Of a DNA stretch of 64,000 bases, positions 2,605-30,830 are shown in pieces. The notes under the pieces were generated by a model. That model did not search any database and was not told the DNA's origin. It saw nothing but the letters and a program-made list of their open reading frames with translations. Each line of letters opens with the position of its first letter. Positions within the stretch are counted from its first letter, which is position 1. The stretch spans positions 248,001-312,000 of the forward strand of contig CP137324.1 of the NCBI GenBank assembly GCA_033182465.1, in the 5' to 3' direction. The DNA comes from Sanghuangporus weigelae. Its lineage: Eukaryota; Basidiomycota; Agaricomycetes; Hymenochaetales; Hymenochaetaceae. The translations under genes and the position numbers were made by a program.

Positions 2605-5600
2605 ACAGTATTCATTTCATTTCGTTTTTAATTGCGACAGCTGCGCGTGCTTTTACTGTAACGGTATCTGAAACGACGGAGATGGCTTGTGACATCGCAC
2701 CGGATGAAGGTAATGGTATTTACGCAAGAAGGGCGATAGTAATACTAATGATATGCAATGTCGTGGGTGCCGTGAACTTCCAACAGATGTTTATTATTCA
2801 TTTCAACGGACATTCTGACATACGTATCTAGGGACCTTATTCGTGCATGTTAAAGACCAGCGGTTTGACTACATCCTGACTTTGTGATTGTTTATGAAAT
2901 GGACACCCCTTCATCCTATGGACTCGGCAGCAACGCTGAATGTAATATTACTTCTCAGAGACTTCGCGTCGTGAGGAGAGTCGACAGACTTTGAAAGGTT
3001 GGTGTTGCTACTCTCTCAGTTGGAACGCAGCTTAAAGACTAATGAGCCATCTCATTGGTTCACGATGTCTTTCATACCGGGTGTGTCGTCCGTCTCCTCC
3101 CATGTGTATCGGGAAGACACAAGAATACACACGCTTGCGCCAATAGAAGATCATAAAGTGCGCGCAATTCGGATGGTAACGGAATTGGATATCAGGTCCT
3201 CATTTTCCTCTATACAAATTTCGGGTCGTTGCATGCTCTCAAGCCTGATGGTGCAATGCACACCATCAACGATTGGGTGTGAGGATTTTTACGTTCTAAG
3301 ATGTAACCTCATGATCGCTGATAATGATATCGACAGCTGGTCCTCTACTTTCCCTTTTCCTCCAGGTTCTGGACGGAGCGTGAGGAATTAGCGGATGTTA
3401 TGACGGATGTGGAAATCGAACCAACTCGATATCGGTACGAACATCCGCTGGGGCCTGCGATTCTGGTCCGGTGGCCGTGGAACGTTTGATTGGCCATCTA
3501 TCTTCTCGCGACCTATTCACTAGGTGCTGTATGCTGTACTGTTCGGCCTTGGTCTGGATGCCCCTCGGACTTACTCTAACCTTGATCCGCAGGGCCGAGA
3601 TTCGGTACTAGTGGTGAGAAGCATTCAATTGCATTGCTAAATTCAAAAGCATTTCCCTGGGGCTCGGTCTTTTAGAAGGAATCTCCTGGATGGTGAGAGA
3701 CTCGTGAAGTGACTACCGATCGGATGGGTCTTGTGGATTTAACAAAGTAGAACAATGCTTTCTCCGCAAAGGAACATGGTAGACTATTTCTGCTAATCAA
3801 GGTAAAGTCCGCTCCAAAGGAATCCTTCCTTTGTCTTCCTGCATTGATAACTGTTCTCTACGGAGGTGTTCTCTGAGTCTGCGGTGTTTAACCATCTCTC
3901 TTATACACCGGCCGTAAGAAGAGCGGGGCATAAGCAGGACACCGCTTAAAAGCCGCTATCATTCTGGACGTAGTCTTTGCATGTCTGTGCTCTCTTTGCT
4001 TCCTGTCGCTAAATACGTATATCGGAAGGTTGTCTATACAACAATAACAATGGGAAGGGGGAAGATAATTGATTTACGAATTCGAAGTTGACGTTCAAAC
4101 GCACGTGTGTTCACTATATTGTCGGACTTCGACTTCATTATGTTCACTAATGCTTCCTTCGAATCGTATTCAAAGGTAGCAGAACTACCACTTTCTAGGA
4201 GAGTTAGATACAAACCGTTCGGTCCAATATCGTTGGATATCGGTCCGAGCAGATAATTACAGAACTCACGGACGTGGCTTCTTTGATTTCGGGCGGCGAC
4301 CCGTTTGTTTACTCTTCAAGAAGCACAACTGAATTGATTCTATTTTGACTATTGTATGTAGCAGAGGCGCGAACGGAGCCGTGGGTCAGGTAAAGGAGGA
4401 CCTGATCCCTTGCATGTGCATTTAGTTTGGTGGTACAAATAGATGCGGAGTTTGTCCGAACCCTCGTATCTCCCACTGGCCAGGTGGCAGCTGTCTACTC
4501 TGGGATTGAACCGATAACGGAGCTGAGATGGCGTCCTTATATTCAACAGGGATGCAGCTGACTAGACATCGAGAAGATGAAGGTAATGTGATACTGTACA
4601 TTTCCCTTGGGTGAGAGGTTGATGTTAGTGATCTTTTCGTTTCAGTGATTCCCAGCGTGTAGCGGTACGCCTTCTATCTTCATTCAAGGGCCAAAAACTC
4701 AAATGCACACCGATAATCTTCAGTACTCCGGCTATCTTGGCCCTGCTGATCTTTCACTAATCAGATGCGGCGCCAGTGCTCCTGTATTATGCTTTGGCGT
4801 TCAATATCTGGATTCTCGATCACGCGACTTCTATTTTAGTGGCAGCGACAAATATAGATCCTGAGCCGGTGGCCTCCGTCCAGAGTCCTATTGTCTGTCC
4901 TCTCGACTGACTCGATTCGACTGGTCAATGATATTATTCTGCTGTACAGAATGCACCAAGGTGCAGTGAACTCGGCTCAACAAAATTTAGAGACCTTCCC
5001 CGCGAACCACTGGCCTATACATCCGTCTTGCGGCCTCTCTACATTGCCTTTACCCACACTAAGTCGTCTTCTCAGATGGTTATCGGCCACAAGGCATCGC
5101 AAAGCTATTTTTAGTCTCAGTCTAACTAGCGAGGCGCGTTCAAATCTCTCATCGAGTTCCGACAAATGTCTTCCCAGCTCACGAACCTCTGTGGCTCGAA
5201 GCTAATATCTCAAGGGCTTTCGCTCCGGAATTCCGCGCCGACTTCAGACTTCCACCGCTTCCGTGCTCGTCTTCTGTTCAGCAGGTCTAGACTAGAAGCC
5301 GTTTATTCGTGGCTAGCTGTAAAGCGTGGGTGGATATACGCAACGTACTGTTTCGCGTGAGATCGAAATCATATCGGCTTGCGACATCGCACCGGATGAA
5401 ATAAGTGGTATTTACGCAAGAAAGGTGGTAGCAATGACAATGCGCTATGTCGTGAGTCGCAAGGGTTCTCGTTCGTTCCAACAGGCATTCTGACATATAT
5501 ATGTATCTAGGGACCTTCTTCGCGACGTATAGACGCAAGCGATTTGACAACATTCTGACTCCATGATTGTTCAAAAAGTGAATACTCCCCTTCATCCTAT

Positions 5601-8600
5601 GGATTCGACAACGACGTAGAACGCAATAATACTCTTCAGAGAATCCACGTTGCGAGGAGAGTCGACAGACTTTGAAGAGTTGGCATTGCTTCTCTATCAT
5701 CTGGTACGAAGCTTAAAGACTAATGAGCCATTTCATTGGTTCACGAAGCCTTTCATATCAGATAAATGGTCCGTCCTTTCCCATGCGTATCGAGAAGACA
5801 TAAACATTCTTACACCTACACGAGCAGAAGATCATCAAACGCTCCGAACTTGGGTGGTAAGGGATTAGATTTCAAGTCCTCATTTTCCTCTAGAAGGTCG
5901 TTTACAGACTTCGGACTGCTGCATGTTCTCAAGCATTCTGATGGAGCAATGCACTCCATCAACGATTGGGTGTGAGGATCTTTACGTTCCAAGACATAAC
6001 CTCATGATCGCTGATAGGAATATGAACAATTGGTCCTCTGCTTTTCTCCTTTCCTCCAGGTCCTGGAGGGAGCGTGAGGAATAAACGGATGTAATGACGG
6101 ATATGGAATCTCACCCAACTCGATATCGGTACGTACATCCGCTTGGTCCTGCGAATCTCGTTCGGTGGCCGCGGAATTGTTGATTGGCCATCTATCGTGT
6201 CCGAACCTATTCACTAGGTACTGTACTGTTCGGCCTTGGTCTGGATGCCCCTCGGGACCTACTCCAACCTTGATCCGCAGGGATGGGATAATATTAACAT
6301 GGTCCTTTCGGTGCTAGTGGTGAGAAACAGTCTATTGCATTGCTTGTCTCAGGAGTGTTTCCTTGCGGCTCGATCCTTTAGAAGGATTGTCCTGGGCAGT
6401 GAGAGACTCGTGGAGAGACTACCGAGCGGATAGGTCTCGTGGACATAACAAGCTGAAACAGAGCTTTTCCTTCAAGGGAAAATGGTGAATCCTGTCCGAT
6501 CTGACTCTTCGCTGTAGGACATGATTTGAAATGCATACTGCACGACGGAAGTATACTCGGCGACGTTTGCGAGGTTTTGGGAGTGAGCATTCCGAAAGCA
6601 CCTTTTAGTCCGACGAAGACTTGCGGAAAAAAAAAAAAAAAAAAAAAAAAAACTGCCAATCATAGCGAAGTCCGCTCCAATCTCATCTCTTCGTTGATTT
6701 TCTGCATTGATGGCTATGCTTTACAGAGGTGTTCTGGGTCTGCGGTGTTTAACTATCTTTATTACGCACGGTCCGCAAGAAAAAGCAAGTAACCGCTTAA
6801 AGCCCGCGTTTGTATTCTGAACATGGACTTTGTGTGTCATACGCGTTCTATTTCCTGCCATTGAATAGGTCTAGTAGGAGACTGCTAACTTAATAGCAAT
6901 GGGAAGATAAACGATTTACGGGCGGAGTTTGGTACGTGGGTATTCAAAAGTACGTGTTTTCACTATATTATCGGACTTTAGAGCTTTATTATGTTCACTA
7001 ACGCTTCCATCGAATCGTATTCAAAGGTCGCAGAACTATCGCTTTCCAGGCGGAGTTCTATTGAGGTACGAACTCTTCGATCCAATATCGTTCGATTTCG
7101 GTCCGAGCAGATAATTACAGAACTCACGGACGTGGCTTCTTTGATTTCGGGCGGCGACCCGTTTACTCTTCGAGAAGCACGACTGAATTGATCCTGAAAT
7201 GACCATTGTATCTAGCAAAGGCTCAAGCGGAGCCGTGGGTCAAGCAAAGGAGGGCTTGTTCCCCTGTATGTGCATTTAGTTCGGTGGTACGAATAGATGC
7301 GGAGTTTGTCCGAATCCTCGTACCTTCAACTGGTCAGCTGCCCGTCGTCTACTCGTCTGAGATCGAATGGATAATGGAATTGAGATAGTGCGCTTACGTT
7401 CCTAGAAAAGGTGCTAGGCCGGACGGTGGTGGAATATAATGTGGTACATCCCTCTTGAATGAGAAGTCAATGCTGGTGGCTCTTCTATCTTCGCATTGAG
7501 GAAGAAAATTCAACCGAATACCGTCAAGCCTGGTCTTCAGTATTTCGGCCACCTTGGTCCTTCTTGACTTTCTTGCATCAATTGCGGCGCTACTTCCGTA
7601 TCTACCATGTGGTTCGTGTTCTACGTCCGATTACAAGGTTCTCGGCCAATCGTCTTCCATTTAAATCGCGGAGACAAATATTGATTCTGAGCCAATACTC
7701 TCATCGCAGTCCTACTACTTGACTATTCTCCCACTCGACTTGAATCGATTCCGCTAGTCAAGCACATTGTTCAGCCGTATGGTAGGCACCAAGGTACTGT
7801 GAATGTGATTCGGCTCAATTTTCAAGAGCTCCTTCGTTTCGGGCTGCCGACATGTTCTGCAATCACGTGTGACGGCCTTGCCCACACTAAAGCATCTTCT
7901 CAGATGGTTACCGTCCACAAAGCATTGCAAGAGCTATACTTGGACTTTGTCAAAATAGCAAGGCACGTTTGTGTCTATTATCGAGTTCTGAGAAGTGTCT
8001 CGCTGCCGTTCGAAGATCTCTGAGTCTCTGCCGAAATTCAAATCCCAAAGGTTCTCGCTGTGGCCTCCCGTGCTGACCATCGGATCTGCATTGCTTCCGT
8101 GCTCGTCTTCTTGCTGTTCTAGACTAGAACTCGTCTACTCGCGGCTTGTTGCATAGTGTGGGTGGACATACAGCGCGCACTTTTCGTGTGGGATCGCAAT
8201 CTTAGCTAAGACTCCGAATTTGTATGATTTTACTTTACCATGAGGCGCATTTGCTTTCTTCCGTGCAGAATCCTCGATGCTGCCAATTACTGTCTGGATG
8301 CACTGTCTCGGCTCCGAGAAAAGGCTTTGAATGCTGAATCCCGGACTACAGGATACGGATCAGGATAATCCCTCTTTGCCTTTGGTTCCTGATCCTTGAC
8401 TATACACCCCGCAATCAACTGCGTTTCGGGTTTGTTTAGTTGTTTTTGCGTCTTTGGCTCGACGTTTCTCTGATTTTGCTCACTGCAATATCGCCATTTC
8501 GTGGATGACCTAGACGCTCGCTCAATGACTTGAACAGTGGCTGTGAGCTGTGAGCACTTTTCTCACTTTCTCAGAGCTTTCTGATCATACAGTAAATCGT

Positions 8601-8770
8601 CTGCCCAAACTGTCCATTTGACAGTGTCATCGAAAACAGAGGCGTCTAACAACGTAGATTCGGTTTGTCCCTCTTGGGTGACCACTGAGGGCAAACGTAA
8701 CTACGCAAAGTTTTTGCAGAAAAAGCGAGGGCTAGTGAGATTTCTTTGAAAATGTGCTAAAATACAGATG
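2605..8770 (+). repeat. Large repeat block, copy A (two tandem ~2.7-kb units plus tail)
   Basis: This block matches 20555-26597 in the same orientation. It has a ~90-bp head, unit 1 (about 2684-5375), unit 2 (about 5376-8190) and a ~570-bp tail found only once per block. The two units share landmarks: the same 20-odd bases around GACATCGCACCGGATGAA begin at about 2690 and 5382, giving a period of about 2.69 kb. Units within a block are clearly diverged from each other, while unit 1 of block A and unit 1 of block B are almost identical over most of their length. No frame exceeds about 140 codons, no known protein domain is visible, and I found no terminal inverted repeats, TG...CA ends or target-site duplication. 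The family is therefore unknown. Unit 2 contains a run of 26 A residues at 6627-6652. The left edge is approximate. Confidence 0.85.
5376..8190 (+). repeat. Unit 2 of repeat block A, reference orientation of the invertible segment
   Basis: Second tandem unit of block A. Within it, 7486-8092 has the same orientation as the corresponding part of unit 1 (about 4673-5260), so this is taken as the ancestral arrangement. In block B the matching 607 bases lie in the opposite orientation. The segment contains a 74-codon open frame (7799-8023) that stays open in both blocks, but it has no recognisable domain. Confidence 0.7.
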
Positions 8771-8906
8771 TTTGCCGTGCAGACGAAAAGAATGTGCGAG
8801 AGGTCTACAGGGACGTCCATGCTAAGGAAATCGGAAGAACAAGTCAGTGCCCCGACAGGAAGTCATCAAAGAATAGGAAACGTACTAATGGTCCAGGAAG
8901 GCAGAG
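8768..8906 (-). pseudogene. Fragment of the Lon protease gene (includes one intron)
   Basis: These 139 bases match 28233-28372 inside the Lon gene with a handful of substitutions and one single-base length difference. The copy covers the 5' part of Lon exon 4, the whole 65-nt intron 3 and the 3' end of exon 3. Because the intron is present, the copy was made from DNA and not through spliced RNA. It starts directly at the right end of repeat block A, with the bases ATG shared by both partners at the junction. It cannot encode a functional domain. In the other block the intact Lon gene lies just beyond the repeat's right end, so this fragment is probably the remnant of a duplicated block that once ran into Lon. 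Confidence 0.9.
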
Positions 8907-9324
8907 AGTCCACGAGCGACTGTTTATATTTATAGAAACCCGATGGGATGCTGTTATCATCCATGCTGAAAGTCGAAGATGCAAGGGGCCTAGCCTGAGG
9001 GCCAAGGCAGAGACGGCGTCGAGCAGAGCTATAAAAAAGCTCGGCTGAAATATACAGCACGCTGAGCGGGCGAACAAGCTGCTCCGTGATCACCGTGATC
9101 AACTGAACTCTGATATCACCCCGTCCCTTCCTTCCTTCCTTCCTTTCTCGAGGAGATGATTAACCGCTCTGTGCGATGCTGCGAAGAAGTGAGCATATGT
9201 ATGTATGGATGCATCCTTCCGGCCCACAAATGGCTTAATTGACTGTATTTCGACTTGAATCAGTATTCTACACTTGATTACTAGAACCATATCATTCTAT
9301 CATGCACATGCATATTAACGCCAT
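8907..9324. other. Non-coding stretch with a CTTC microsatellite
   Basis: No gene is recognisable. The stretch contains a short run of CTTC/TTCC repeats at about 9122-9148 and a TATA-like TATAAAAAA at about 9030-9038 with no convincing gene downstream. It lies between the Lon fragment and the ~40-bp repeat array. Confidence 0.45.
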
Positions 9325-9545: not shown

Positions 9546-9770
9546 CCTGGGTCATCCCACACGGAGCTCTTTCGCGCCAAACACTGGTATCGAGGTTTCC
9601 TATATTGGTCTCGACTGAAGAGAAGTTCCTGGTCTTTCTTGTCCATGAGACCTCGGTGGAGATTTTGGGTCATGTCTAGACAGAACTTCCTCGTGTTTTC
9701 GTTTGATGTGGCAACAGATACCGATTTCGATTTTGATGGGTTCTGAAGAGAGGACGAGTGCTCACCGAAC

Positions 9771-9777: not shown

Positions 9778-10146
9778 TGATCCTCGAGGAGGAGCAGGTT
9801 CAAGCCACCTCGAATCCTTGTTCATTTACTCACTACTACCGTACGTGCACGATTTCGTCCGCATTGGGAGATCATGTTGACTGACGTTTATCCCACCATA
9901 CCAGATGCAAAAACAGTTGGGTACAGCTTTCACCAGTCTTCTTGAGGGTAATGGCTGGCAGAAGCTCTCGAGACCTAGCGTCCCTCGTGGCGCGACTGCA
10001 GTCCCCAGGAGCTCGACTGCCGCCGCGAGGATTGGTCTTCGCCTCGACTACGACAATTACATTGAGAAGGGCGACGACAAGGTCAAATGGCACCAGTTCA
10101 AACTCCAGGTGAACGCAGGCGACACGATCCCCAATGCGTTCAAGAA

Positions 10147-10432
10147 TGTTGTGAGGGAGCGAACACGAATATCCGAGAGGAAAACTCTCTATTGTTTTGT
10201 TATACAGTTTTTACAGCGGTTTTATAATACTGAAGGGATCTGAGACATAAGTCGGGATAGAACGGTAAAGAAATAGAATGGTAATACAATTCAAAAAGCG
10301 AAAGAGAATTGACAAACAAGAATGACAAGCACAAAACCGAAAGAATGCAAATGATTAATAAATACCATATATTCATTCCAAACGGCAAGTGAAACAACTC
10401 GATCGGAACTTCGACAGTTTGATAATCCAACA
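10147..10432 (-). repeat. 3' LTR of the Ty1/copia element
   Basis: This 286-bp direct repeat starts TGTTGTGAGGGAGCG and ends ATAATCCAACA. It is the downstream LTR because the coding parts run on the minus strand. It is flanked outside by AAGAA. Confidence 0.95.
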
Positions 10433-10445
10433 CTCCCCCTCAAAG
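10433..10445 (-). other. Polypurine tract of the Ty1/copia element
   Basis: On the minus strand the bases CTTTGAGGGGGAG directly precede the 3' LTR, the expected place and composition of the plus-strand primer. Confidence 0.75.
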
Positions 10446-11345
10446 TGTGCGAAGTCCGAGTTCCGAAGCAAAATGTTTGACTTTGAAAGATGGCAGAGGT
10501 TTTGTAAATATATCGGCTGTCATGTCCTCGGTAGGACAAAACACGAGTCGAATTTTCTTTTCCTCGATGAGCCATCGAATGAAGTGATATCGAACATCAA
10601 TATGTTTTGTTCGAGCGTTGAACTGACGTTCTTTGGTAATGGAAATCGCGGATTTGTTGTCAGAAAAGATGGTTGTTGGTTGAAGAGACGTCTTGAATAA
10701 TTGATAAACAAGTTGGCGAAGCCAAATTGCCTCTTTGGCTGCATGGGTGGCGGCAATGTATTCGGATTCGGCTGTAGAAAGCGAGACGATTTCTTGTGTT
10801 TTCGAATACCACGATATGGCTCCTCCATTCAGAATAAATACATTACCAGAAATTGCTCGACGTTCTTCCTGCATGCTTCCATCTGCGTCCGTAAAGCCTT
10901 TCAATTCATGTCCTTGAACTCCTCCGTAGGTCAACCAAAGATTTCTGGAACCTTTTAAGTACGCGAATACACGTTTGACGGCCTTCCAATGATCTGGCCC
11001 AGGGTTCACGGAAAACTTGGATAATAGCGTTACAGTAAACGCTATGTCGGGCCGAGTTGCTAAAGCCGCGTACATTAGGGACCCAATCGCCTCTCGATAT
11101 GGTACGTCCCGCATGGTGCCAAGTTCTTCGGCTGAGTGTGGAGAATGCGAAGAGGTTAAACGAACATTTGGGTCCATGGGACTGGACAGCGGTTTTAGCT
11201 CATCAAAGTTAAATCGACGCAAGATAGCATCGATGTAGGCCCGTTGAGAAAGAGAAAGGCTTCGATTTTCGCGATTCCGAATGATTTCAATTCCGAGCAG
11301 CCAGTGAAGTGATCCAAGGTCAGTAATGTCGACATATTCTTGAAA
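10446..11345 (-). pseudogene. Ty1/copia pol, C-terminal part (end of RT and RNase H)
   Basis: This is the downstream part of the pol region. It shows typical copia RT-RNase H text: LGSLHWLLGIEI-like and RRFNFDELKPLSSPMDP segments, then ALATRPDIAF, LKGSRNLWLTYGG, the RNase H core around GFTDADGSMQ, VSLSTAESEYIAA and FSDNKSAISI, and a terminal FTKPLPSFKVKHF. It abuts the nested insertion on its upstream side. It is part of a broken element. Confidence 0.9.
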
Positions 11346-11350
11346 GCGTT

Positions 11351-12931
11351 GTCAGTCGGCGGTGTCGTATCTGAAGGTGCTACAGATGTCCGTCCTACTA
11401 AGGGTGCTGAATGTATGAAGGGACCTCCAAAAATGGGATGCCGACGCTATCAGACTCTCAAAGACCTACTACCCGGCAGGTGCCAGGAACCGTCGGAGAC
11501 GTAATGGATGGGTCTAGGGATGCCGCTGGATAAAGGGAATAGGATAACAGGACCGCCGCTTGAGAGGGGGGATCACAGGGGGCTGCCGACGTGGTATAAA
11601 CTCGGCCACAGGAAGGTATGAAGTGTATAAGATGAATATAAAGGATAAAATGGAGTGAGTGGCTGGAGAAGGCGCCGCTGGGTCGTCTGATAGGATGCCT
11701 GGGTCGTCGGATGGCCGCCGACGTCAAATAGAGGGGCGCCGGATCACTGAACGTCAGAGCGGCAGAGGTGTACCGGAGGCGGCGAAGGCAAGTAGAATGT
11801 GGAGTCAAACAAGAGGAGATGTCAAGGATAGTATATAGTCAAGAGGGAGGCTCAGTACATGAGGGGAGACTCAGAGTGAGGGATATCTCGAACTCTGGTG
11901 CTCGGTCTGGTACATGCTCTTAGAATCCTTGCTAGGCTTGGAATCCTTTCGTCTACAAGCTAGTATAAGCTCTATATATACTCTACTGCTGTCGCCGACA
12001 CATCCTACTGTCTGACAACATCTCCTGAGTCATCTGGGTCGCCAAGGGCCGCTGCCGGAGCGCCCAGGTGAAATCTGAGAGCGGCAACGTGAGGGGGGCA
12101 TCCAATAGCATGGAATATCGAGTATCTGCAATAATACGGGCGCCAGCGGAGTTGGGCTTGGCGGCGCGAGTCGGTGGCTTGGCACGCCGATGTACCACAT
12201 GCCTACCTTCCATACATGGTCTAATGGGGGCCGCCGCGTTGGGGGGAAGTCGGGAAACATCGGAACCGATGATCGGAGGCTGATATCGCGTATATGAGAC
12301 AAAGGGCGCATCAGCCGATGTCCCTGAGATGTCCGATGCATCGGCGGCACTCAATACAGAGTGTGGGCGATCCCTAGTGACTAATATGAGTGGCCGGAGC
12401 GGCAGTGCTGTGGGGGACTGCCGGACTGGTGGCAGATACATCGTAATGAGGCATGTAAGCACATATGACAATATATAGCTCCCTAGACAATGGGGGACTG
12501 CTTGGTAAGCTGTAGGAGGCGTCGGCGAGGGTACCTGAGGATGTCTGAGTGTCCGCCGCATTGATCGGCGCCAAGGAGGGCCGACTCGGAGGCATCCAGA
12601 GTCGCCGCACGGCTGTACGTATGGTAAATCATAAGATCGGCGGCACGTAGTCACTGAGGGATGTGTCCTATAGTGCCTGGTGCTGGGTAGGAGCTGTCGG
12701 CGGACCTGTCTGAGTGTTGGGGAGCCATCGGCGGATCGATTTGGGTCATAGGAGGGCGCCGCAGTACAGTACGTGTGCTGGAATCAATGGATACGTGCTC
12801 AAATGATGTCCTGAGTGCAATAGGAGTGTGCCCTCACACTCTCAGGTGTCGGCAGTGCTGGGATATGGTATCTGCAGTAAGAGGGAGCCATAGTATGAGT
12901 GTACTGGCACAGGAGGAGCCAGTGCGCTACA
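11351..12931. mobile_element. Nested GC-rich insertion inside the copia RT region
   Basis: About 1581 bases interrupt the copia reverse transcriptase and are flanked by a GCGTT duplication (11346-11350 and 12932-12936). With a 4-bp duplication (GCGT) the insert would read TGTCAG...GCTACA, i.e. TG...CA ends, which would fit an LTR-type element such as a solo LTR or a short non-autonomous copy. The interior is markedly richer in G and C than its host and repeats GTCGGCGG/CCGCCGAC-like words many times. An open frame of 223 codons (11983-12654, minus) has low-complexity composition and no recognisable domain. The class is not certain. Confidence 0.75.
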
Positions 12932-12936
12932 GCGTT

Positions 12937-15430
12937 GCTTGAACCAAGCTATCTGTTCGCCACGTGTTCCAGCAATAGTAAAGTCGTTGACATGAATCAC
13001 CACAATAAGAATTTTGTCTTTGTTGTGGAGGAAGAAAGCCCCGAGGTCGGCATCCGAGCAGGTAAATCCCAATTTATTACAAAGGATCCACGTGACTTTT
13101 TGATACCATTTTCGTCCAGACTGCTTAAGGCCATATATGGGTTTCTTCAGCTCGTATACCTCGGTTTTGCTCCTCGCATATCCTGGTGGCGGCCTCATGA
13201 ATATGTCCTCTCCGTCATCAAATTGGCCATTTAGGTAAGCACTTTTAACATCAATTTGTTCCAATTCGAGGTCGTAAAGTGCTGCCATGGCCAGGACGGC
13301 TCGGATAGTAGAAAGTTTCGCGACAGGTGCGTATGTTTCAAAAAAGTCGACTCCTGGGACTTGACTGAAACCCTGTGCCACTAACCTTGCTTTATATCGT
13401 ATAGGCTTCCCAGCAGCGTCCTTCTTCACCTTGAAGACCCACTTGGAACCTACGATGTTGGTTCCTTTAGGTACGTGGTCGCGTTTCTCCCATGTACCAG
13501 CTGATTCTAATGCGTGTATTTCTTCTTTCATAGCTTGCTCCCACAGTCTCCATTCGGGGAGTCTTTTCGCTTCTGATAGGGAGTGTGGTTCAACGACGTC
13601 CACGTCGTCCATAGCGGCCATGAACGCATACTCCTCATCGTAGTCGTCCACCCTCTCATCAATCACATCCGCAGCCGCAGCTACTGCTGCGCGCATGCCC
13701 CGTGGCAGACTCCTATCGGATCCCTCGCCGGCCAATACTCTCCTAACGTATGGAGAGGGTTTCTTAATGCGTTTAGAAGAGTTCTCGTTGTCCTCATCGA
13801 CGATCGTCTTGGATTTGTAAGTCTCTTTTTCTTCGTTTTTGTTTTTCTCGCTAGGGGTCTCCTTTTCTTCCTCCCTCTCAAGACAAATCGATTTGACGTC
13901 GCTCGGCGAAAAGTATACGCTTCGTTCCACGGTGAGTGATTTGTTTTCTGGCCAATATATGCATGATCCGTTCGATGCTGAATCATATCCAACCCATCTG
14001 CCCTCACGGACTCTTTTGTCCAATTTGGATCCACTAGTGTCGTGTACCCAGACTCGAGAGCCCCATTCGGGCAATCCCTTCAAGAAGGGTTTCTTTCCGT
14101 AAAGCGCCTCGTATGGCGTTTTATTTCCTAATGGTCTGGTAACAACACGATTCTTCAACCATGCTGCATGCTTGCAGCATTCGGACCACAAGTTCTTCGG
14201 CAAAACGCTGCTATGCAGCATTGAACGCATTTTCTCGCCAATTGTCCTATTGACTCGTTCAGCAACTCCATTGTGTTCGGGAGTATCATGAACGGTGAGC
14301 TTCTGTTCTGTTCCCTGAGATTTGAGAAACTCAACAAAGTCTTTCCCAGTGAATTCTCCCCCTCGATCGGAATGAAGTCTTTTTATTTTAACGCCATGTT
14401 GCGTTTCGGCCCACTTAGCAAACGTTTTGTACGAGTCGAAAGCGTCTCGTTTCGATCGTATGATTGCCAGGTATGTAAATCTTGTGGCATCATCTGTAAA
14501 TGACACATAGTAACGTTTGCCTCCAATCGATTGGACAGGTGAGGGTCCCCAAAGATCGGTATGAATTTCATCACCGAAATTTTCTGCTAACTTGCTAGAT
14601 CGAGCTTTTGTTATCTGGAATCGAGTAGCACGGCCATATAAACATGAATCACATGTTTTGGGCGCAGGTACTGACTGGTCTAGCTGGATTCCTTCAACAA
14701 GACCCTTCGTTATCAACTGGGTGGCAGATTTGGGCGATATATGGCCCAATCTCGCGTGCAACTGATCGACAGTGAGTTTCTGCCTCTCATCTTCATCATT
14801 GATCAAGTATGTAGCAGAATCGACGTTGAAACGATATAGACCACGTTCAGTACGAGGTATGTCTGCGATTTTCCTTCCTTCTGGATCGATAATGATGCAT
14901 TTTGCGTTTCCAAAAGTCGATTCGTGTCCCATTAAATTGAGACGGCCCACTGAAATTAGGGTAGATGTCACTCGAGGTGAGTACCACGCATCCTTCAATT
15001 GTATCTTTGACGCTGAATCTCCATTCGGTAGTTCTATCTCGATAGTTCCTTCTCCAACAGCGTGGAACGGCTGTCTATTCGCTGCGCGAAGTAACTTCGG
15101 CGGAACGGTATGAAACGAGATAAAATCAGATTTATTTGGAGAAAGGTGACGTGTACTTCCAGAATCAATGATAACTTGACTAATTCTTTCTTCTTCCTCG
15201 GGTGTATCCTCTGTCACTTTGGCTGAGAGCTCGACCATAGGATAGTCGTTTTCGTCTTCATCAAACCAGTCTTCGAAACCAGGTGGGCACTCGACACCTT
15301 CTTTCACATCCTCATCTACTGCAGCACACCAATCCGATTCGTCCTCAGAATCCACAGTTACGTTAGCAGACTCTTTCATGTTTCCATCCTTCGATTTAGG
15401 CTTTTCTGTCTCAGGTGGTGAGTTGTTCAT
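12937..15430 (-). pseudogene. Ty1/copia pol, N-terminal part (protease, integrase, RT start)
   Basis: In order on the minus strand: an aspartic protease segment around VIIDSGSTRHL, a GAG-pre-integrase zinc region with HARLGH and CDSCLYG, the integrase core with TDLWGPSP, DDATRF and GVAERVNRTI, and the first half of reverse transcriptase with WVFKVKKDAAGKP, YKARLVAQGF, FETYAPVAKL and VKSAYLNGQF. This order identifies Ty1/copia. The RT is interrupted by the nested insertion. It is part of a broken element. Confidence 0.93.
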
Positions 15431-16546
15431 TTCGCGTTTTGGTCCACTGTAAGATTGATCTTTTCTTTCTTTGAGCTTCTTACAGTTCTTGACAATGTGC
15501 CCTGGTTTGTGGCAATAATGACACGTCCTCGTTTCCTTTCGAGGTCGTTCCTCAGCAATGAGGGATACTTCCTTGCCTTTGGTATCTCGTTTTTGGTCAG
15601 TTTTTCGTCTTTCACGTTCTTTCGACTCTCGTTCGGATTCGACTGATATGAGATGGATTAGAGCGTCTGGATCGATGGCTCAGATTTTTCGAATGGTTTC
15701 CTGGGAAATTTGGCCACCATAAAACGAAATTGCATGACTTGCTGCTACTTCAGCGGCCGAAACTTGGGTCGAAGCGTACTTGGCCAATCCAGGAGGAATG
15801 GAGTTGATGATAGTCGACCTGTAAGCATCATCGTCGATTGTTACGCCGCATGCTGCTAATGTTTGCTTTTTGAGGCGTAATTCATTCAGGAATTGCTTCA
15901 CATTCGCTCCTTTGGGGCATTTCGACTCCATGAATTCGTTTTTCAACGAGGTTTGTGCAAACATCGATTTGTCGGTATATTCCTGAACTACTAATCTCCA
16001 TTTCTCAGCAACTGTACGACATGTCAAGATTCAGACAATAGTCGTATCAGGGAGCTTCGAGGTAAGCAAATAATTTGCTGTATCTTCGTCTTTGTCCCAT
16101 GCATCCTGACGAATTGACAATGTTAGATCGTCATCGTCATCGTCATCAGCTGGAGGAACCCCCGGGGATGGTGGAAGAGGCGGTAGGCTTTCTATAGGCG
16201 GTTCAGGCTGGGGCGGCGGAGCAGTCGCTGCTCCTCTGCCTCTGCCCCTACCTCGACCAGAACGCGTTTGGATTCCCTCAGGAGCGACAGGAGGCGGTTG
16301 AGGGGCTGGTGCAGAGCCCGTCAAGCCCAAATTCGGCCAACCCAAGGGGCCGAATGACTGAGCTGAAGGCTGGATAGTCGGGGGAACAGCTGCAGCCGCT
16401 TCAGGACGAGTGGACGACCCATCAAAGTGGTCCCAAACTCGTTTGGCACGTACAGCGGCCTCAAGACGTATAGCGAATATCGTCCAATTCTCCCCACTAG
16501 GCTGTAAAGACGGCACGGACTTCAGTTCGTCCAATGACAAGGACAT
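15431..16546 (-). pseudogene. Ty1/copia gag region
   Basis: The region begins MSLSLDELKSVPSLQPSG, typical of the gag start of fungal copia elements (NW.IF..RLEAA). It continues through a proline/glycine-rich stretch, a UBN2-like capsid segment (ECKCPKG-type, FLNELRLKKQTLAACG) and a CCHC knuckle, CHYCHKPGHIVKNC, at about 15485-15530. It is part of a broken element. Confidence 0.85.
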
Positions 16547-16646
16547 ATCGGTGAGTTTCTCCTTTTCTCTGTAGCGGTCTCAGGCGCTAACACTCGGAAT
16601 ATTGCTTTGATTGAAAAATAGCGGACTCTGGCGCACGATCAAGCAA

Positions 16647-16657
16647 GGCTCATAACC
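16647..16657 (-). other. Primer-binding site matching the anticodon arm of initiator tRNA-Met
   Basis: Immediately inside the 5' LTR the minus strand reads GGTTATGAGCC. This is complementary to GGCUCAUAACC, the anticodon-loop region of eukaryotic initiator tRNA-Met. Copia of Drosophila is known to use the 5' half of that tRNA as its primer, and the position here fits the same mechanism. Confidence 0.75.
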
Positions 16658-16943
16658 TGTTGTGAGGGAGCGAACACGAATATCCGAGAGGAAAACTCTC
16701 TATTGTTTTGTTATACAGTTTTAACAGCGGTTTTATAATACTGAAGGGATCTGAGACATAAGTCGGGATAGAACGGTAAAGAAATAGAATGGTAATACAA
16801 TTCAAAAAGCGAAAGAGAATTGACAAACAAGAATGACAAGCACAAAACCGAAAGAATGCAAATGATTAATAAATACCATATATTCATTCCAAACGGCAAG
16901 TGAAACAACTCGATCGGAACTTCAACAGTTTGATAATCCAACA
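16658..16943 (-). repeat. 5' LTR of the Ty1/copia element
   Basis: This is the partner of the 286-bp repeat at 10147-10432, with two substitutions between them. It is the upstream LTR of the minus-strand element and is followed by the AAGAA target duplication. Confidence 0.95.
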
Positions 16944-17139
16944 AAGAATTGGAGGGAGAAGCAGATGAAGGGCACGCATGCTGTGATGGCGAAGGTTGAG
17001 ATTAGGGAAGGCGCCGACAAGGACGAGATCGAAGCGGTGTTGACGGAAGCTACTAAAGATGTCCGAGGTGTCTAAGCCCCATGCCGCGTTGCCGGTCCAA
17101 AGATGTTCCGTCCGTCCCGTTATTCCAATATGATATATA

Positions 17140-17805
17140 CAGGCATTTACTGGTCCTTTAAACAGTACCCTTCCTTTGAACACCCTACATTTACTCACTC
17201 AAACCTCCAATTTGCAACTTGAAATTTTTATCATAGGTGGACAGAATACACATGAGTAATGCTGCGAAATTTCAGCAAATTACTATGACCCGTTAAATAC
17301 AGAGAAATTATTTACTGCTGAATTTCAGTGAAACTCAATGAGAAACAATGAATCAGATGCATTTTGCTATTCATTCATGCCTTGAGCATGGCTCAAAAGC
17401 AGATATATCAGTACTCCACTACTGCAAGTACATGCAGCCTAGTTTTTGTGGCGAAAGAGCTATCCAATGAATTAATAGAAGGCATACAATAAAGGTGACT
17501 TGAAAAGCGTGACAGGCAGACTTATCAACATTATTATGTAATCGGGCGGTTCTCATCTCGCGAATATGCACTAGCATGACACTTATGTCACAAGGTGTTC
17601 AAAGGAGTTAATTTCGTGACATTTACCCTACTTTTTTCACACGCACAATTTGATTTTTCCTGCACATTTTACAGCTCAAAAAAATTTCAGCATATAGCCT
17701 CCATAGCAGACTACTCAGATATGTAATTAGATTTTTTTTAAAATGTTTGTGGTGTTGTGTACGAGTGGATCTGTATTGGGTGTTCAAAGGACCGGTAAAT
17801 GCCTG
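17140..17805. mobile_element. 666-bp MITE with TA target duplication (Tc1/mariner/pogo-like)
   Basis: The ends are inverted repeats: CAGGCATTTACTGGTCCTTT at the left and the complement of AAAGGACCGGTAAATGCCTG at the right. A further inverted GGGTGTTCAAAGG motif lies next to each. TA flanks both ends (17138-17139, 17806-17807), the signature of Tc1/mariner-superfamily insertion. The interior is A/T-rich with no open frame of note, so it is non-autonomous. The left inverted repeat carries an extra ~15 bases. It lies between the interrupted small gene and the Aim9-like gene. Confidence 0.85.
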
Positions 17806-17901
17806 TATGTAGTTGTAAGCTTATCTCGATCGTTTGAAAGAAGCTCCGAATGTTATCTTATCTCCAGGTCTGAGTGAAGCGTCGGTTAGTTTCGCTCTGC
17901 C

Positions 17902-19874
17902 ATGTTCCGCCTTTGGTGTTCCTCCCTACGACTCCTTGCAGCTGGAGTCTCCTCCTCTCTGCGTCGTCCTTGCTGCCCACTCTCTTCTCTCAACCCCTCT
18001 TTCACGAGGAACCCCATCACCACCGCGACCAGTCGACTACCTTCTCGTCGACTCTCCAAAATGTTGGACCCGAAGTCTCTCATGGAGGATCTGGAGAGCG
18101 AACTCTTCAACTACACTACTGGGCGTTTCCTGTAAGTCTCCTCCATCTTGTCTCGTCTTTGTCTAACTCGTAATGTGACGTTGCTCAGTGCCAACGAAGC
18201 CCTTCGCCTCCGAGATCGCAGGCGCGTCTTCGACATCCCCGGACTCTTTAGAATCATCGCTAAGGTACTGTCCTGCAAGACTGAAGAGATCGTCGGCTTT
18301 AGAAAGCTTGGAGAGGGTGGCTTCAACCGTACCTTTCTCGTCACCTTAGACACTGGCTTCCAGCTCGTCGCTCGCATCCCGTATCCCATCCTACTTCCCA
18401 AGGCGTACGCTCTCGCCAGTGAAGTCGCTACCATGGACTTCCTTCGCTCCAAAGGGCTCCTCATTCCCAAGGTCTACGCGTATTCCTTTACGTCAAAGAA
18501 CGAGGCCGAGACGGAATACATTCTAATGGAGTACGCTGAAGGCATCGACTTGAGCCAGATATGGTTCGACCTCAAGGAAGATGAAATCATCTCACTTATG
18601 GACCAGCTTGTGAAGGTTGAGTCTACTATGATGTCCATCTCTTTCCCCGCTGGCGGGAGCATTTACTACACCAGAGACCTGAAGGAGCTGTCTGGGAACG
18701 AGGGCATCCCGCTCGAGGAGGACAATGAAGGCATCCCACTCGACGAGCAGATCGAGAGCATCTCGCTCGAAAAGGAGCGATTCTGTATAGGCCCTGATGT
18801 ATCGGTACCGCTGTGGTATGGACGAAGGGAACAACTGGACGTATTCCGAGGACCATGTACGTCGCACTTCTCCCATCTCTTCGGCCTCTTCTTAATCAAT
18901 CGATGACCATAGATGAAGACGCCAAATCGGTGCTGGTGGCGGGAGCCAAGAAAGAGCTCGCCTACCTTGACCAGTTTGGCTCACTGAGGGCACCTTATCA
19001 ACGCTTCCGAAGGGAGTACTATAACTACGAGAAGCAGTCACCGTCGGATCACGCCAATAACCTTCGTCGCTATCTCTGTCTCGCACCGTCGCTCGTGCCA
19101 GACAACGACTCCCAAAACACTTTCTGCATCCGCCATCCCGACCTCACCGATAGCAATCTCAAGATTTCGATAGATTCCAGCGGCTTGCAGATCCTTAGCG
19201 TGTTGGACTGGCAGTACGCTGTTGTCCTACCCCTCTTCCTCCACGCCGGTATGCCCGACGTCATCCAGAATGAAGAGGATGAGGTCTCTCGAGGGATGGT
19301 CAAGCCTAAGCTACCGGACGACTTCGACAAGCTATCAGAAAAAGAGCAAGAATGGGAGATGGAGCTCCTCCGTCGTCGTCTTGTTCACTATCATTACAAC
19401 CTGAGCACAGCCGCGTACAACAGGATCCACCACAAGGGTCTGGTCTATCCGTTGAATACTTTCCGTCGCCGCATCTACAATCATGCAACTGCTGTGTGGG
19501 AGGGTGAGACAATCAAGTTGCTGTATGCGCTGATGGATATGGTGTGTGGCTGGGCGAGTTTCGCGAAAGACGGCACGCCATGTCCGGTGGTGTTCACAGA
19601 GGACGAGAAAGCTGCAGCGGTTCAGCTGTATCAGGCACTGGCAAACGCAGAAATGGGTGAGAGGATGCTGATGGACAGAGTCGGCTACGCGGAGGAGACC
19701 TGGGTGCCCGTCGCTCACTACGAGAAAGCCAAGGCGTTCGGTCAGCAGATGAAGCAGATGACATTGAAGGCATGTGCGGAGGACGAAGAGGCAACGGAGG
19801 AGACGTACGCTGTGATCGAGACGAACTGGCCCTTGGACGATATGGACGAAGAGGAGTTAGAGGAGTACAAGTAA
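17902..19874 (+). CDS. Aim9-like mitochondrial phosphotransferase (APH/choline-kinase fold)
   Basis: Three exons (17902-18131, 18189-18856, 18913-19874) encode 619 residues, and both introns (57 and 56 nt) keep the frame. The N-terminus (MFRLWCSSLRLLAAGVSSSLRR) is basic and hydrophobic, as in a mitochondrial presequence. The body has the phosphotransferase-family (PF01636) marks: a nucleotide-loop-like GEGGFNRTF at about residue 120, a Brenner-type catalytic motif HPDLTDSNL, and the metal-binding LDW in ILSVLDWQYA. Fungal relatives are named Altered Inheritance of Mitochondria 9; the substrate is unknown. Despite the family name nothing suggests antibiotic resistance. A short internal repeat (GIPLEED/GIPLDEQ/SISLEKE) lies at about residues 265-285. 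The gene looks intact although it sits between mobile sequences. A start at the second ATG (18061) would drop the presequence. Confidence 0.88.
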
Positions 19875-20554: not shown

Positions 20555-23500
20555 TCATTTCCATTTTAATTGCAACAGCTGCGCGTGGTTTTTCTTTCTA
20601 TAACGGTATTTGAAACGACGGAGATGGCTTGCGACATCGCACCGGATGAAGTAAATGGTATTTAAGCTAGAAAGGCGATAGTAATACTAATGGTATGCAA
20701 TGTGGTGAGTGCCTTCCAACAGATCTAGATGTTTATTATTCATTTCAACGGACATTCTGACATATGTATCTAGCAACCTTCATAGACGCCAGCGATTTGA
20801 CAACATTCTGACTCCATGATTGTTTATGAAGTGAATACCACTTCACTATCTGTACTCGGTAGCAACGCTGGATGGAATATTACTTCTCAGAGACTTCGGG
20901 TCGCGAGGAGAGTCGACAGACTTTGAAAAGTTAGTGTTGCTTCTCTGTCAGCTGGAACGAAGCTTAAAGACTAATGAGCCATCTCATTGGTTCACGAAGC
21001 CTTTCATAACAGGTATGTCGTCCGTCTCTTCCATGTGTATCGAGAAGACACAAAAATACACACTCTGCGCCAGTAGAAGAGCATAAACCGCGCTCGATTC
21101 GGATGGTAATGGGTGTGAGGATCTTTACGTTCTAAGATGTAACCTCATGATCGCTGATAATGATATGGACAGCTGGTCCTCTACTTTCCCTTTTTCTCCT
21201 GGTTCTGGACGGAGCGTGAGGAATAAACGGATGTTATGACAGATGTGGAAACGGAACCAACTCGATATCGGTACGTACATCCGTTGGAGCCTGCGAATCT
21301 GGTCCGGTGGCCGTGGAACGTTTGATTGGCCATCTATCTTCTCGCGACCTATTCACTAGGTGCTGTATGCTGTACTGTTCGGCCTTGGTCTGGATGCCCC
21401 TCGGACTTACTCTAACCTTGATCCGCAGGGCCGAGATTCGGTACTAGTGGTGAGAAGCATTCAATTGCATTGCTAAATTCAAAAGCATTTCCCTGGGGCT
21501 CGGTCTTTTAGAAGGAATCTCCTGGATGGCGAGAGACTCGTGAAGTGACTACCGATCGGATGGGTCTTGTGGATTTAACAAAGTAGAACAATGCTTTCTC
21601 CGCAAAGGAACATGGTAGACTATTTCTGCTAATCAAGGTAAAATCCGCTCCAAAGGAATCCCTCCTTTGTCTTCCTGCATTGATAACTGTTCTCTACGGA
21701 GGTGTTCTCTGAGTCTGCGGTGTTTAACCATCTCTCTTATACACCGGCCGTAAGAAGAGCGGGGCATAAGCAGGACACCGCTTAAAAGCCGCTATCATTC
21801 TGGACGTAGTCTTTGCATGTCTGTGCTCTCTTTGCTTCCTGTCGCTAAATACGTATATCGGAAGGTTGTCTATACAACAATAACAATGGGAAGGGGGAAG
21901 ATAATTGATTTACGAATTCGAAGTTGACGTTCAAACGCACGTGTGTTCACTATATTGTCGGACTTCGACTTCATTATGTTCACTAATGCTTCCTTCGAAT
22001 CGTATTCAAAGGTAGCAGAACTACCACTTTCTAGGAGAGTTAGATACAAACCGTTCGGTCCAATATCGTTGGATATCGGTCCGAGCAGATAATTACAGAA
22101 CTCACGGACGTGGCTTCTTTGATTTCGGGCGGCGACCCGTTTGTTTACTCTTCAAGAAGCACAACTGAATTGATTCTATTTTGACTATTGTATGTAGCAG
22201 AGGCGCGAACGGATCCGTGGGTCAGGTAAAGGAGGACCTGATCCCTTGCATGTGCATTTAGTTTGGTGGTACAAATAGATGCGGAGTTTGTCCGAACCCT
22301 CGTATCTCCCACTGGCCAGGTGGCAGCTGTCTACTCTGGGATTGAACCGATAACGGAGCTGAGATGGCGTCCTTATATTCAATAGGGATGCAGCTGATTA
22401 GACGTCGAGAAGAAGGTAATGTGATACTGTACATTTCCCTTGGGTGAGAGGTTAATGCTAGTGATCTTTTCGTTTCAGTGATTCCCAGCGTGTTCTGGTA
22501 CGCCTTCTATCTTCATTCAAGGGCCAAAAACTCAAATGCACACCGATAATCTTCAGTACTCCGGCTATCTTGGCCCTGCTGGTCTTTCACTAATCAGATG
22601 CGGCGCCAGTGCTCCTGTATTATGCTTTGGCGTTCAATATCTGGATTCTCGATCACGCGACTTCTATTTTAGTGGCAGCGACAAATATAGATCCTGAGCC
22701 GGTGGCCTCCGTCCAGAGTCCTATTGTCTGTCCTCTCGACTGACTCGATTCGACTGGTCAATGATATTATTCTGCTGTACAGAATGCACCAAGGTGCAGT
22801 GAACTCGGCTCAACAAAATTTAGAGACCTTCCCCGCGAACCACTGGCCTATACATCCGTCTTGCGGCCTCTCTACATTGCCTTTACCCACACTAAGTCGT
22901 CTTCTCAGATGGTTATCGTCCACAAGGCATCGCAAAGCTATTTTTGGTCTCAGTCTAACTAGCGAGGCGCGTTCAAATCTCTCATCGAGTTCCGACAAAT
23001 GTCTTCCCAGCTCACGAACCTCTGTGGCTCGAAGCTAATATCTCAAGGGCTTTCGCTCCGGAATTCCGCGCCGACTTCAGACTTCCACCACTTCCGTGCT
23101 CGTCTTCTGTTCAGCAGGTCTAGACCAGAAGCCGTTTATTCGTGGCTAGCTGTAAAGCGTGGGTGGATATACGCAACGTACTGTTTCGCGTGAGATCGAA
23201 ATCATATCGGCTTGCGACATCGCACCGGATGAAATAAGTAGTATTTACGCAAGAAAGGTGGTAGCAATGACAATGCGCTATGTCGTGAGTCGCAAGGGTT
23301 CTCGTTCATTCCAACAGACATTCTGACATATATATGTATCTAGGGACCTTCTTCGCGACGTATAGACGCAAGCGATTTGACAACATTCTGACTCCATGAT
23401 TGTTCAAAAAGTGAATACCCCCCTTCATCCTATGGATTCGACAACGACGTAGAACGCAATAATACTCTTCAGAGAATCCACGTTGCGAGGAGAGTCGACA

Positions 23501-26500
23501 GACTTTGAAGAGTTGGCATTGCTTCTCTATCATCTGGTACGAAGCTTAAAGACTAATGAGCCATTTCATTGGTTCACGAAGCCTTTCATACCAGATAAAT
23601 GGTCCGTCCTTTCCCATGCGTATCGAGAAGACATAAACATTCTTACACCTACACGAGCAGAAGATCATCAAACGCTCCGAATTTGGATGGTAAGGGATTA
23701 GATTTCAAGTCCTCATTTTCCTCTAGAAGGCCGTATTATACAGACTTCGGGCCGCTGCATGTTCTCAAGCATCCTGATGAAGCAATGCACTCCATCAACG
23801 ATTGGGTGTGAGGATTTTTACGTTCTAAGAAGTAACCTCATGATCGTTGATAGCGCTATGGACAACTGGTCCTCTGCTTTCCCCTTTTCCTCCAGATTCT
23901 GGACGGAGCGTGAGGAATAAACGGATGTTATGACAGATGTGGAAACGGAACCAACTCGATATCGATACGTACATTCGCTTGGTCCTGCGAATCTCGTTCG
24001 TTGGCCGCGGAATTGTTGATTGGCCATCTATCGTGTCCGAACCTATTCACTAGGTACTGTACTGTTCGGCCTTGGTCTGGATGCCCCTCGGACCTACTCC
24101 AACCTTGATCCGCAGGGATGAGATAATATTAACATGGTCCTTTCGGTGCTAGTGGTGAGAAACAGTCTATTGCATTGCTTGTCTCAGGAGTGTTTCCTTG
24201 CGGCTCGGTCCTTTGTAAGGATTGTCCTGGGCGGTGAGAGACTCGTGGAGAGACTACCGAGCGGATAGGTATCGTGGACATAACAAGCTGAAACAGAGCT
24301 TTTCCTTCAAGGGAAAATGGTGAATCCTGTCCGATCTGACTCTTCGCTGTAGGACATGATTTGAAATGCATACTGCACGACGGAAGTATACTCGGCGACA
24401 TTTGCGAGGTTTTGGGAGTGAGCATTCCGAAAGCACCTTTTAGTCCGACGAAGACTTGCGGAAAAAAAACAAAAACAAAAAAACTGCCAATCATAGCGAA
24501 GTCCGCTCCAATCTCATCTCTTCGTTGATTTTCTGCATTGATGGCTATGCTTTACAGAGGTGTTCTGGGTCTGCGGTGTTTAACTATCTTTATTACGCAC
24601 GGTCCGCAAGAAAAAGCAAGTAACCGCTTAAAGCCCGCGTTTGTATTATGAACATGGACTTTGTGTGTCATACGCGTTCTGCTTCCTGCCATTGAATAGG
24701 TCTATCTGGAGGCTGCTAATTCAATGGTGATGGGAAGATAAATTATTTACGGACGGAGTTTGATACGTGAGTATTCAAAAGTACGTGTTTCCACTATATT
24801 ATCGGACTTTAGAGCTTTATTATGTTCACTAACGCTTCCATCGAATCGTATTCAGAGGTCGCAGAACTATCGCTTTCCAGGCGGAGTTCTATTGAGGTAC
24901 GAACTGTTCGGTCCAATATCGTTCGATATCGGTCCGAGCAGATCATTACAGAACTCACGGACGTGGCTTCCTTGATTTCGGGCGGCGACCCGTTTACTCT
25001 TCGAGAAGCACGACTGAATTGATCCTGAATTGACCATTGCATCTAGCAAAGGCGCAAGTGGAGCCGTGGGTCAGGTAAAGGAGGGCTTGTTCCCCTGTAC
25101 GTGCATTTAGTTCGGTGGTACGAATAGATGCGGAATTTGTCCGAATCCTCGTACCTTCAACTGGTCAGCTGCCCGTCGTCTACTCGTCTGAGATCGAATG
25201 GATAATGGAATTGAGATAGTGCGCTTACGTTCCTAGAAAAGGTGCTAGGCCGGACGGTGGTGGAATATAATGTGGTACATCCCTCTTGAATGAGAAGTCA
25301 ATGCTGGTGGCTCTTCAATGCAGATCCGATGGTCAGCACGGGAGGCCACAGCGAGAACCTTTGGGATTTGAAATTCGGCAGAGACTCAGAGATCTTCGAA
25401 CGGCAGCGAGACACTTCTCAGAACTCGATAATAGACACAAACGTGCCTTGCTATTTTGACAAAGTCCAAGTATAGCTCTTGCAATGCTTTGTGGACGGTA
25501 ACCATCTGAGAAGATGCTTTAGTGTGGGCAAGGCCGTCACACGTGATTGCAGAACATGTCGGCAGCCCGAAACGAAGGGGCTCTTGAAAATTGAGCCGAA
25601 TCACATTCACAGTACCTTGGTGCCTACCATACGGCTGAACAATGTGCTTGACTAGCGGAATCGATTCAAGTCGAGTGGGAGAATAGTCAAGTAGTAGGAC
25701 TGCGATGAGAGTATTGGCTCAGAATCAATATTTGTCTCCGCGATTTAAATGGAAGACGATTGGCCGAGAACCTTGTAATCGGACGTAGAACACGAACCAC
25801 ATGGTAGATACGGAAGTAGCGCCGCAATTGATGCAAGAAAGTCAAGAAGGACCAAGGTAGCCGAAATACTGAAGACCAGGCTTAACGGTATTCGGTTGAA
25901 TTTTCTTCCTCAATGCGAAGATAGCTTCCGTGCTCGTCTTCTTGCTGTTCTAGACTAGAACTCGTCTACTCGCGGCTTGTTGCATAGTGTGGGTGGACAT
26001 ACAGCGCGCACTTTTCGTGTGGGATCGCAATCTTAGCTAAGACTCCGAATTTGTATGATTTTACTTTACCATGAGGCGCATTTGCTTTCTTCCGTGCAGA
26101 ATCCTCGGTGCTGCCAATTACTGTCTGGATGCACTGTCTCGGCTCCGAGAAAAGGCTTTGAATGCTGAATCCCGGACTACAGGATACGGATCAGGATAAT
26201 CGCTCTTTGTCTTTGGTTCTTGATCCTTGACTATACACCCCGCAATCAAATGCGTTTCGGGTTTGTTTAGTTGTTTTTGCGTCTTTGGCTCGACGTTTCT
26301 CTGATTTTGCTCACTGCAATATCGCCATTTCGTGGATGACCTAGACGCTCGCTCAATGACTTGAACAGTGGCTGTGAGCTGTGAGCACTTTTCTTCCTTT
26401 CTCAGAGCTTCTGATCATAAATCGTCTGCCCAAACTGTCCATTTGACAGTGTTATCGAAAACAGAGGCGTCTAACAACGTAGATTCGGTTTGTCCCTCCT

Positions 26501-26597
26501 GGTGACCACTGAGGGCAAACGTAACTACGCAAAGTTTTTGTGCAGAAAAAGCGGGGCTAGTGAGATTTCTTTGAAAATGTGGCTAAAATACAGATGT
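20555..26597 (+). repeat. Large repeat block, copy B
   Basis: This is the second copy of the block at 2605-8770, in direct orientation about 17.9 kb away. Unit 1 begins at about 20626 and unit 2 at about 23209. Compared with block A, unit 1 lacks roughly 100 bases near 21105 (A: about 3180-3285), and 607 bases of unit 2 are inverted (25317-25923). The head and first ~850 bases differ from block A at roughly one base in ten, whereas from about 21301 to 23390 (A: 3471-5560) only scattered differences remain. The poly-A run of block A is broken by C residues here (24463-24484). No coding content is recognisable. The right end lies about 270 bases from the stop codon of Lon. Confidence 0.85.
25317..25923 (-). 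repeat. 607-bp inverted segment in repeat block B
   Basis: These bases are the exact-ended reverse complement of 7486-8092. Left junction: CTCTTC joins AATGCAGATC here and TATCTTCGCA in block A. Right junction: CGAAGATA and CTGCATT respectively join GCTTCCGTGC. Both versions are 607 bases, with no gain or loss at either junction. Unit 1 of both blocks has the block-A orientation, so the inversion happened in block B. I find no inverted repeats at the breakpoints. Confidence 0.9.
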
Positions 26598-30694: not shown

Positions 30695-30830
30695 GTCGAT
30701 CGAGCCTTCTCATACGCCGGGGTCTTTGCTCGTCGCGAGGAAAAGAGGCTTAGCAAGACGGACGCGCGGCACGTGCAGGTATCTTATCTGATAATTCAGA
30801 CAGAATTACGATACATAATTGAAATTGAAA

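Follow-up and report, generated by a model that had tools for sequence, protein, structure and literature searches.

Two long blocks of similar DNA lie in direct orientation on contig C7 (CP137324.1) of Sanghuangporus weigelae, and the locus raises the question of whether they are a mobile element, a gene in some state of preservation or duplicated host DNA. Here we analyse a window of 64,000 nucleotides (248001-312000 of the contig) against its own genome, which comprises 33.87 Mb in 13 contigs; positions are those of the window unless a contig is named. Segmental duplications are defined as stretches of at least 1 kb that are at least 90% identical. We consider it probable that the locus is an old local segmental duplication without a recognized gene, which has been fractionated, patchily homogenized and hit by a copia element and a miniature element (MITE). 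The feature looks like a genome rearrangement of a familiar sort rather than a novel mobile element.

Organization of the repeat blocks

Self-BLAST confirmed the predicted layout of two direct blocks of about 6 kb (A and B), in each of which a tail follows two tandem units of about 2.7 kb (Table 1). The high similarity that the original prediction ascribed to the blocks holds for most of their length and fails in the left arm: positions 3274-7488 and 21110-25319 are 97.1% identical over 4218 columns (E = 0), and 8090-8771 and 25921-26597 are 96.9% identical, whereas 2617-3182 and 20555-21112 share only 84.0% (all by self-BLAST). The first of these matches exceeds both limits in the definition of a segmental duplication, and the copies are few, with two blocks and four units at one locus in the genome (counts that are lower bounds). 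The units of a block are about 75% identical to each other overall (about 66-81% across separate self-BLAST pieces), with better-kept patches such as 4204-4302, in which there are 8 differences in 99 positions. At the unit junction, A and B are letter-identical over the 41 bases compared. A run of 26 A residues in A2 (6627-6652) is broken by a C in its B2 counterpart.

Table 1 Coordinates of the features of the locus (window positions unless a contig is given)
Feature	Position	Strand	Remarks
Block A	2617..8771	+	self-BLAST; own-genome searches
Block A left arm	2617..3293	+	about 15% diverged from block B
Unit A1	2684..5375	+	self-BLAST, alignment
Unit A2	5376..8204	+	self-BLAST, alignment
609-bp segment in A2	7485..8093	+	orientation common to A1 and B1
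Block A tail	8205..8771	+	holds solo-LTR-like match at 8648-8697
Lon-like gene fragment	8768..8906	+	copy of 28233-28372, 94.3% (self-BLAST; alignment; tblastn)
Upstream duplicate	8906..9220	+	315 bp, copy of C7:244247-244554, 12.7 kb upstream
Split small gene	9881..10146 and about 16949-17075	+	limits by eye; parted by copia element
Copia element	10147..16943	-	LTRs 10147-10432 and 16658-16943
MITE	about 17137..17808	.	about 670 bp, terminal inverted repeats
APH-like gene	18061..19874	+	PF01636 for 18136-18903, E 3.2e-07; start by eye
Block B	20555..26597	+	self-BLAST
Unit B1	20626..23208	+	lacks about 90 bp present in the other units
Unit B2	23209..26035	+	self-BLAST, alignment
609-bp segment in B2	25316..25924	-	inverted in place, derived state
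Lon-like protease gene	26880..30709	-	right of block B; PF02190 for 28850-29524; approximate limits

The direct orientation that had been described does not extend to the whole of the second block, as one segment stands inverted in it: 7485-8093 matches the reverse complement of 25316-25924 at 605 of 609 positions. Because A1 and B1 share the orientation of A2, the inversion is derived in B2. Its ends are those of a clean cut-and-flip, and no inverted repeat is visible there in the bases inspected. Special conservation of the inverted 609 bp was considered and dropped, as 4 differences (0.7%) are ordinary for tracts of low divergence.

With the inverted piece turned round and the Lon fragment appended, the alignment of the two blocks has 6181 columns, of which 224 show a difference. 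These differences, together with the inversion, a 90-bp indel and the different flanks, speak against an assembly artefact, in which one block would be a mis-joined haplotype or a duplicated piece of a contig; nothing was found in favour of such an artefact, which, judged from the sequence, is unlikely and of negligible probability.

Copy number and relation to transposons

Searches of the genome confined the units to this locus. A query of 2605-3605 gave 5 matches, with units only in blocks A and B; 5376-7480 (E up to 10) gave 7, all in the two blocks; and 3600-8910 gave 13, those outside the blocks being only a Lon match and 5 short matches to 8648-8711 (all counts are lower bounds). A search of the 2.7-kb unit against its own genome had been proposed with the original prediction, and it revealed no unit outside the locus. 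On this ground, and with no dispersed copies that share ends, a dispersed transposon family was rejected; the statement that the units belong to no nameable family is borne out, the unit being absent elsewhere in the genome.

Classic transposon ends, which had been reported as lacking, are indeed lacking from the blocks, but each tail holds a decayed piece that resembles a solo LTR. The family to which it belongs is about 195 bp in length, has copies that mostly begin with TGTTG and finish with CAACA, and occurs at 12 places in the genome, a count that includes incomplete copies and the one that each block tail carries. Copies were examined on C13, C9, C8, C7 and C11; of 5 that were inspected by eye, 2 are flanked by 5-bp target duplications without a mismatch and a third by one that agrees at 4 of 5 bases, and the dispersed stretch has the appearance of a solo LTR. 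The scored match in each tail covers 49-50 bp, although in block A the likeness extends by eye over about 8613-8720. This old LTR-like piece evidently sits inside the duplicated tail and does not define the block. On C9, at a distance of about 6-7 kb from the end of the contig, a diverged tandem repeat (1231-1517 of the extracted stretch) lies beside the solo-LTR-like copy.

The presence of this 12-place family in both tails is what could be cited for the units being a decayed non-autonomous mobile element, such as a large LTR derivative, that survives only at this locus. The family matches each block once only, in the tail, and the units occur nowhere else in the genome, and we regard this origin as very improbable. 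A large LTR-retrotransposon derivative (LARD) or a TRIM was rejected, as such an element has an LTR at both ends and the LTR-like matches here lie only at 8648-8697 and 26473-26521.

Tests for coding capacity and function

The blocks had been described as holding no recognizable gene, and none was recognized here, by coding tests that are negative but weak. Ten open reading frames (ORFs), the 8 longest of the 40 of at least 60 amino acids in block A and 2 of the 39 in block B, gave no Pfam match at E up to 1. The longest ORFs (141 amino acids in A and 140 in B) were reached by 74 of 200 and 86 of 200 dinucleotide shuffles, respectively, and block B has no counterpart of the two longest in A. 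The numbers of ORFs of at least 60 amino acids are mildly in excess of the shuffle means of 30.7 for A and 28.6 for B (reached by 7 and 1 of 200 shuffles, for blocks that are not independent of each other). A plain base shuffle, which is a poorer control than the dinucleotide shuffle, gave a mean longest ORF of 129 amino acids (95th percentile, 169) and a mean of 26 ORFs of at least 60 amino acids. Of the 35 gaps in the alignment of A1 with A2, 25 have a length not divisible by three, as expected by chance, and no clear pattern emerged when the mismatches between the two units were searched for three-base periodicity. In a codon test, certain aligned segments of the units scored z values of up to 2.7 in a frame; the test is weak, as the control pair scored only z 1.8-3.1. 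The control was a tandem pair with a sub-threshold short-chain dehydrogenase match in one member, and all five of its best segments were on one strand. The window contains a tandem pair at 45387-46279 and 47045-47997, 68-77% alike. In one member a short-chain dehydrogenase match stays below threshold (E 0.0033), and the second, which has none at E 0.01, may be decayed.

A protein-coding unit is not supported. Because the ORF count is mildly in excess and the codon test is weak, we retain the possibility that the units are remnants of a multi-exon protein-coding gene, either duplicated and decayed or active but unrecognized. The surplus in both blocks and the segments at z up to 2.7 agree with such a gene; the empty Pfam scan, the gaps that ignore reading frame, the mismatches without a clear three-base pattern and the unmatched longest ORFs of block A do not, and they leave it a very small probability.

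No Rfam match was found in 1-30000 at E up to 1, and no tRNA was found by ARAGORN in the whole window. A scan of 202 windows for RNA structure gave a best z of -4.8 (30 shuffles), with 3.5% of windows below -3. A palindrome recurs at about 3390-3450 in A1 and at its counterparts, with fold z-scores of -3.6 in A1, -3.4 in A2, -1.9 in B1 and -1.0 in B2 (folded lengths of 134 nt in A1 and B1 and 120 nt in A2 and B2), and one stem position is G-C in A1, A-U in B1 and mispaired in A2 and B2 (by eye). Because 202 windows were scanned, we treat this signal as weak. A lineage-specific non-coding RNA or other functional element would fit the good folding in A1 and A2, the exchange of G-C for A-U and the better-kept patches between units (4204-4302); however, many windows were scanned, the palindromes of B1 and B2 fold poorly, those of A2 and B2 mispair, Rfam is empty and old conversion explains the kept patches equally well, so we hold such an element to be extremely improbable.

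It would likewise be a long shot for the units to form a lineage-specific functional locus (an RNA gene, an unrecognized gene or a chromosomal site) that is kept alike by recurrent gene conversion and whose direct repeats switch the deletion or amplification of the phosphotransferase gene. Repeat-induced mutation or CpG decay was rejected: the observed/expected CpG ratio is 1.03-1.11 in the four units and 0.89-1.15 in their surroundings, the MITE excepted. The blocks need no function, and the best account of the units is host DNA that underwent duplication and partial homogenization.

A mosaic of divergence

Divergence between the blocks is strongly uneven. A two-state hidden Markov model (HMM) fitted to the 6181 columns gave divergence rates of 1.07% and 12.7%, with differences at 53 of 4901 columns in the low tracts and 171 of 1280 in the high tracts. 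Its gain over a uniform model (2 x delta log likelihood, 229.9) compares with a permutation maximum of 8.4 (n=20; permutations were fitted with 15 rounds and the real data with 60). High tracts include the left arm at 2605-3293 (88/583), 5890-6146 (31/257) and 6844-6956 (16/113); three high tracts span only 8-23 columns and may be clustered mutations or alignment noise. Over the first four windows compared, A2 and B2 differ at 7 of 562 columns and A1 and B1 at 87 of 563.

Where A1 and B1 show 0 differences in 141 columns, A1 and A2 differ at 56 of 132 (42%). With divergence of as much as 42% between units 1 and 2 in such places, the low tracts are not constrained, and sharply different tracts that are not due to constraint are what marks interlocus gene conversion. 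A and B would accordingly be old copies (84-85% identical, as the left arm and the upstream copy still are) that later exchanged sequence over most of their length. An alternative is a recent duplication of the block in which one left arm was overwritten from a lost third copy, and this also requires conversion. The expectation that the blocks should recombine is upheld as regards the past, in that the patchwork of about 1% and about 13% divergence records exchange.

DNA between the blocks

The interval between the blocks (8772-20554) is 11.8 kb in length. The phosphotransferase gene, split small gene, copia element and MITE that had been listed for it are all present; missed at its start were the Lon fragment (8768-8906) and the 315-bp upstream duplicate.

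In the phosphotransferase (APH-like) gene, the match to the APH family PF01636 is the first ORF, and 5 further places in the genome, all on C8, resemble the gene (44-46% for four of them and 27% for the fifth). The gene also contains, at 18697-18770, 2.7 copies of a 27-bp tandem repeat. The small gene is interrupted by the copia insertion (reading across the insert by eye), and its ORF at 9881-10243 has no Pfam match at E 0.01. The copia element is young, with LTRs that are 99.3% alike (self-BLAST), and is flanked by the 5-bp target duplication AAGAA (by eye); 23 of the 27 matches to its LTR family are near full length, its own two included. A repetitive insert at about 11352-12841 in this element has 85 matches including itself, many of about 1.2 kb at 92-97%. 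The search with the MITE region gave 64 matches, of which 63 fall on the MITE, the query itself excepted, and 26 are near full length; the observed/expected CpG ratio of the MITE is 0.52.

The junction at 8906 and the origin of the locus

The Lon-like gene to the right of block B is the source of the 140-bp fragment, and its PF02190 match lies in an adjacent exon. The 1.6 kb between the block B tail and the start of the Lon copy (26598-28232) has no counterpart in A, and 3-4 bases are shared at 8768-8771, where block A meets the Lon fragment. The Lon copy gives way at 8906 to a copy of C7:244247-244554, which is about 85% identical to its source (85.4% by BLAST); only these two places were found in the genome. 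A segment end here abuts a segment start, the end-to-start junction that marks head-to-tail tandem duplication. A short array of tandem repeats, each roughly 74 bp long, lies 12 kb to the left of the window (C7:235973-236262).

The tandem units, two joins, mosaic, inversion and insertions are present in the sequence; we infer how they arose, the joins by a single tandem duplication and the mosaic by conversion. In the history that we propose, about 2.7 kb would have been tandemly duplicated long ago, giving units that are now about 25% apart. A head-to-tail duplication would then have taken in a larger segment, which began at C7:244247 and ended within the Lon-like gene (C7:276372), with the left copy spanning C7:244247 to 8906 and the right copy running from 8906 into Lon; block A would belong to the left copy and block B to the right, and the junction would survive at 8906. 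The copies may then have lost DNA differently, and gene conversion between A and B could have interspersed tracts of about 1% divergence with others of about 13%. Finally, a 609-bp piece of B2 would have been flipped, and the copia element and MITE inserted between the blocks.

What remains in two copies of the supposed segment of about 32 kb is the blocks, the 140-bp Lon piece and the 315 bp, and nothing more. No similarity was found between -3446 to 2617 and 9220-20555 at E up to 1, with settings that detect A1 against A2; because the remaining flanks share no match, extensive complementary loss must be assumed. Outside the homogenized tracts, the left arm (84.0%) and the upstream copy (85.4%) are of similar apparent age by the same BLAST measure. 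Counting against the duplication, the Lon fragment (94%) is closer than these 84-85%.

Template switching during repair would leave similar joins, and a chain of such switches is the main rival to tandem duplication at 8906. One or a few replication-based repair events would have copied first block B, next a Lon stretch of 140 bp and finally 315 bp that lie 12.7 kb upstream, in keeping with three pieces that abut directly and with the 3-4 shared bases at 8768-8771. However, the pieces differ in apparent age (97%, 94% and 85%, with the left arm at 84%), and the join at 8906 is the product expected of tandem duplication; we consider a patchwork of this kind rather unlikely.

Possible instability and comparison with known systems

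If tandem duplication and conversion shaped the locus, it offers a readable fungal segmental duplication outside known genes, with a tandem junction, the mosaic ascribed to conversion and an inversion of derived state all in a single place. Such a locus could be of use in measuring the frequency with which direct repeats of compact fungal genomes undergo conversion as opposed to crossing over. With long tracts 99% alike, the direct repeats here have the potential to remove or amplify about 17.8 kb. It is plausible that copy number varies today; what the mosaic speaks for is exchange in the past and not variation at present. If it is true that the block pair deletes or multiplies the 12-kb interval, the locus would be a ready marker of structural variation.

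The known systems with which we compared the locus include LARDs and solo LTRs. The decayed LTR-like piece of a 12-place family in each tail recalls them, but the left end has no second LTR match and the remainder has no dispersed copies. From intrachromosomal segmental duplications (low-copy repeats) that undergo interlocus gene conversion (PMC4132178), the blocks here differ in that they hold no recognized gene, contain within them a tandem duplication of greater age, include a small segment inverted in place and have lost much of the flanks that were duplicated with them. They share with that system a small number of long direct copies at one locus, a patchwork of divergence and a possible role as a substrate for unequal recombination.
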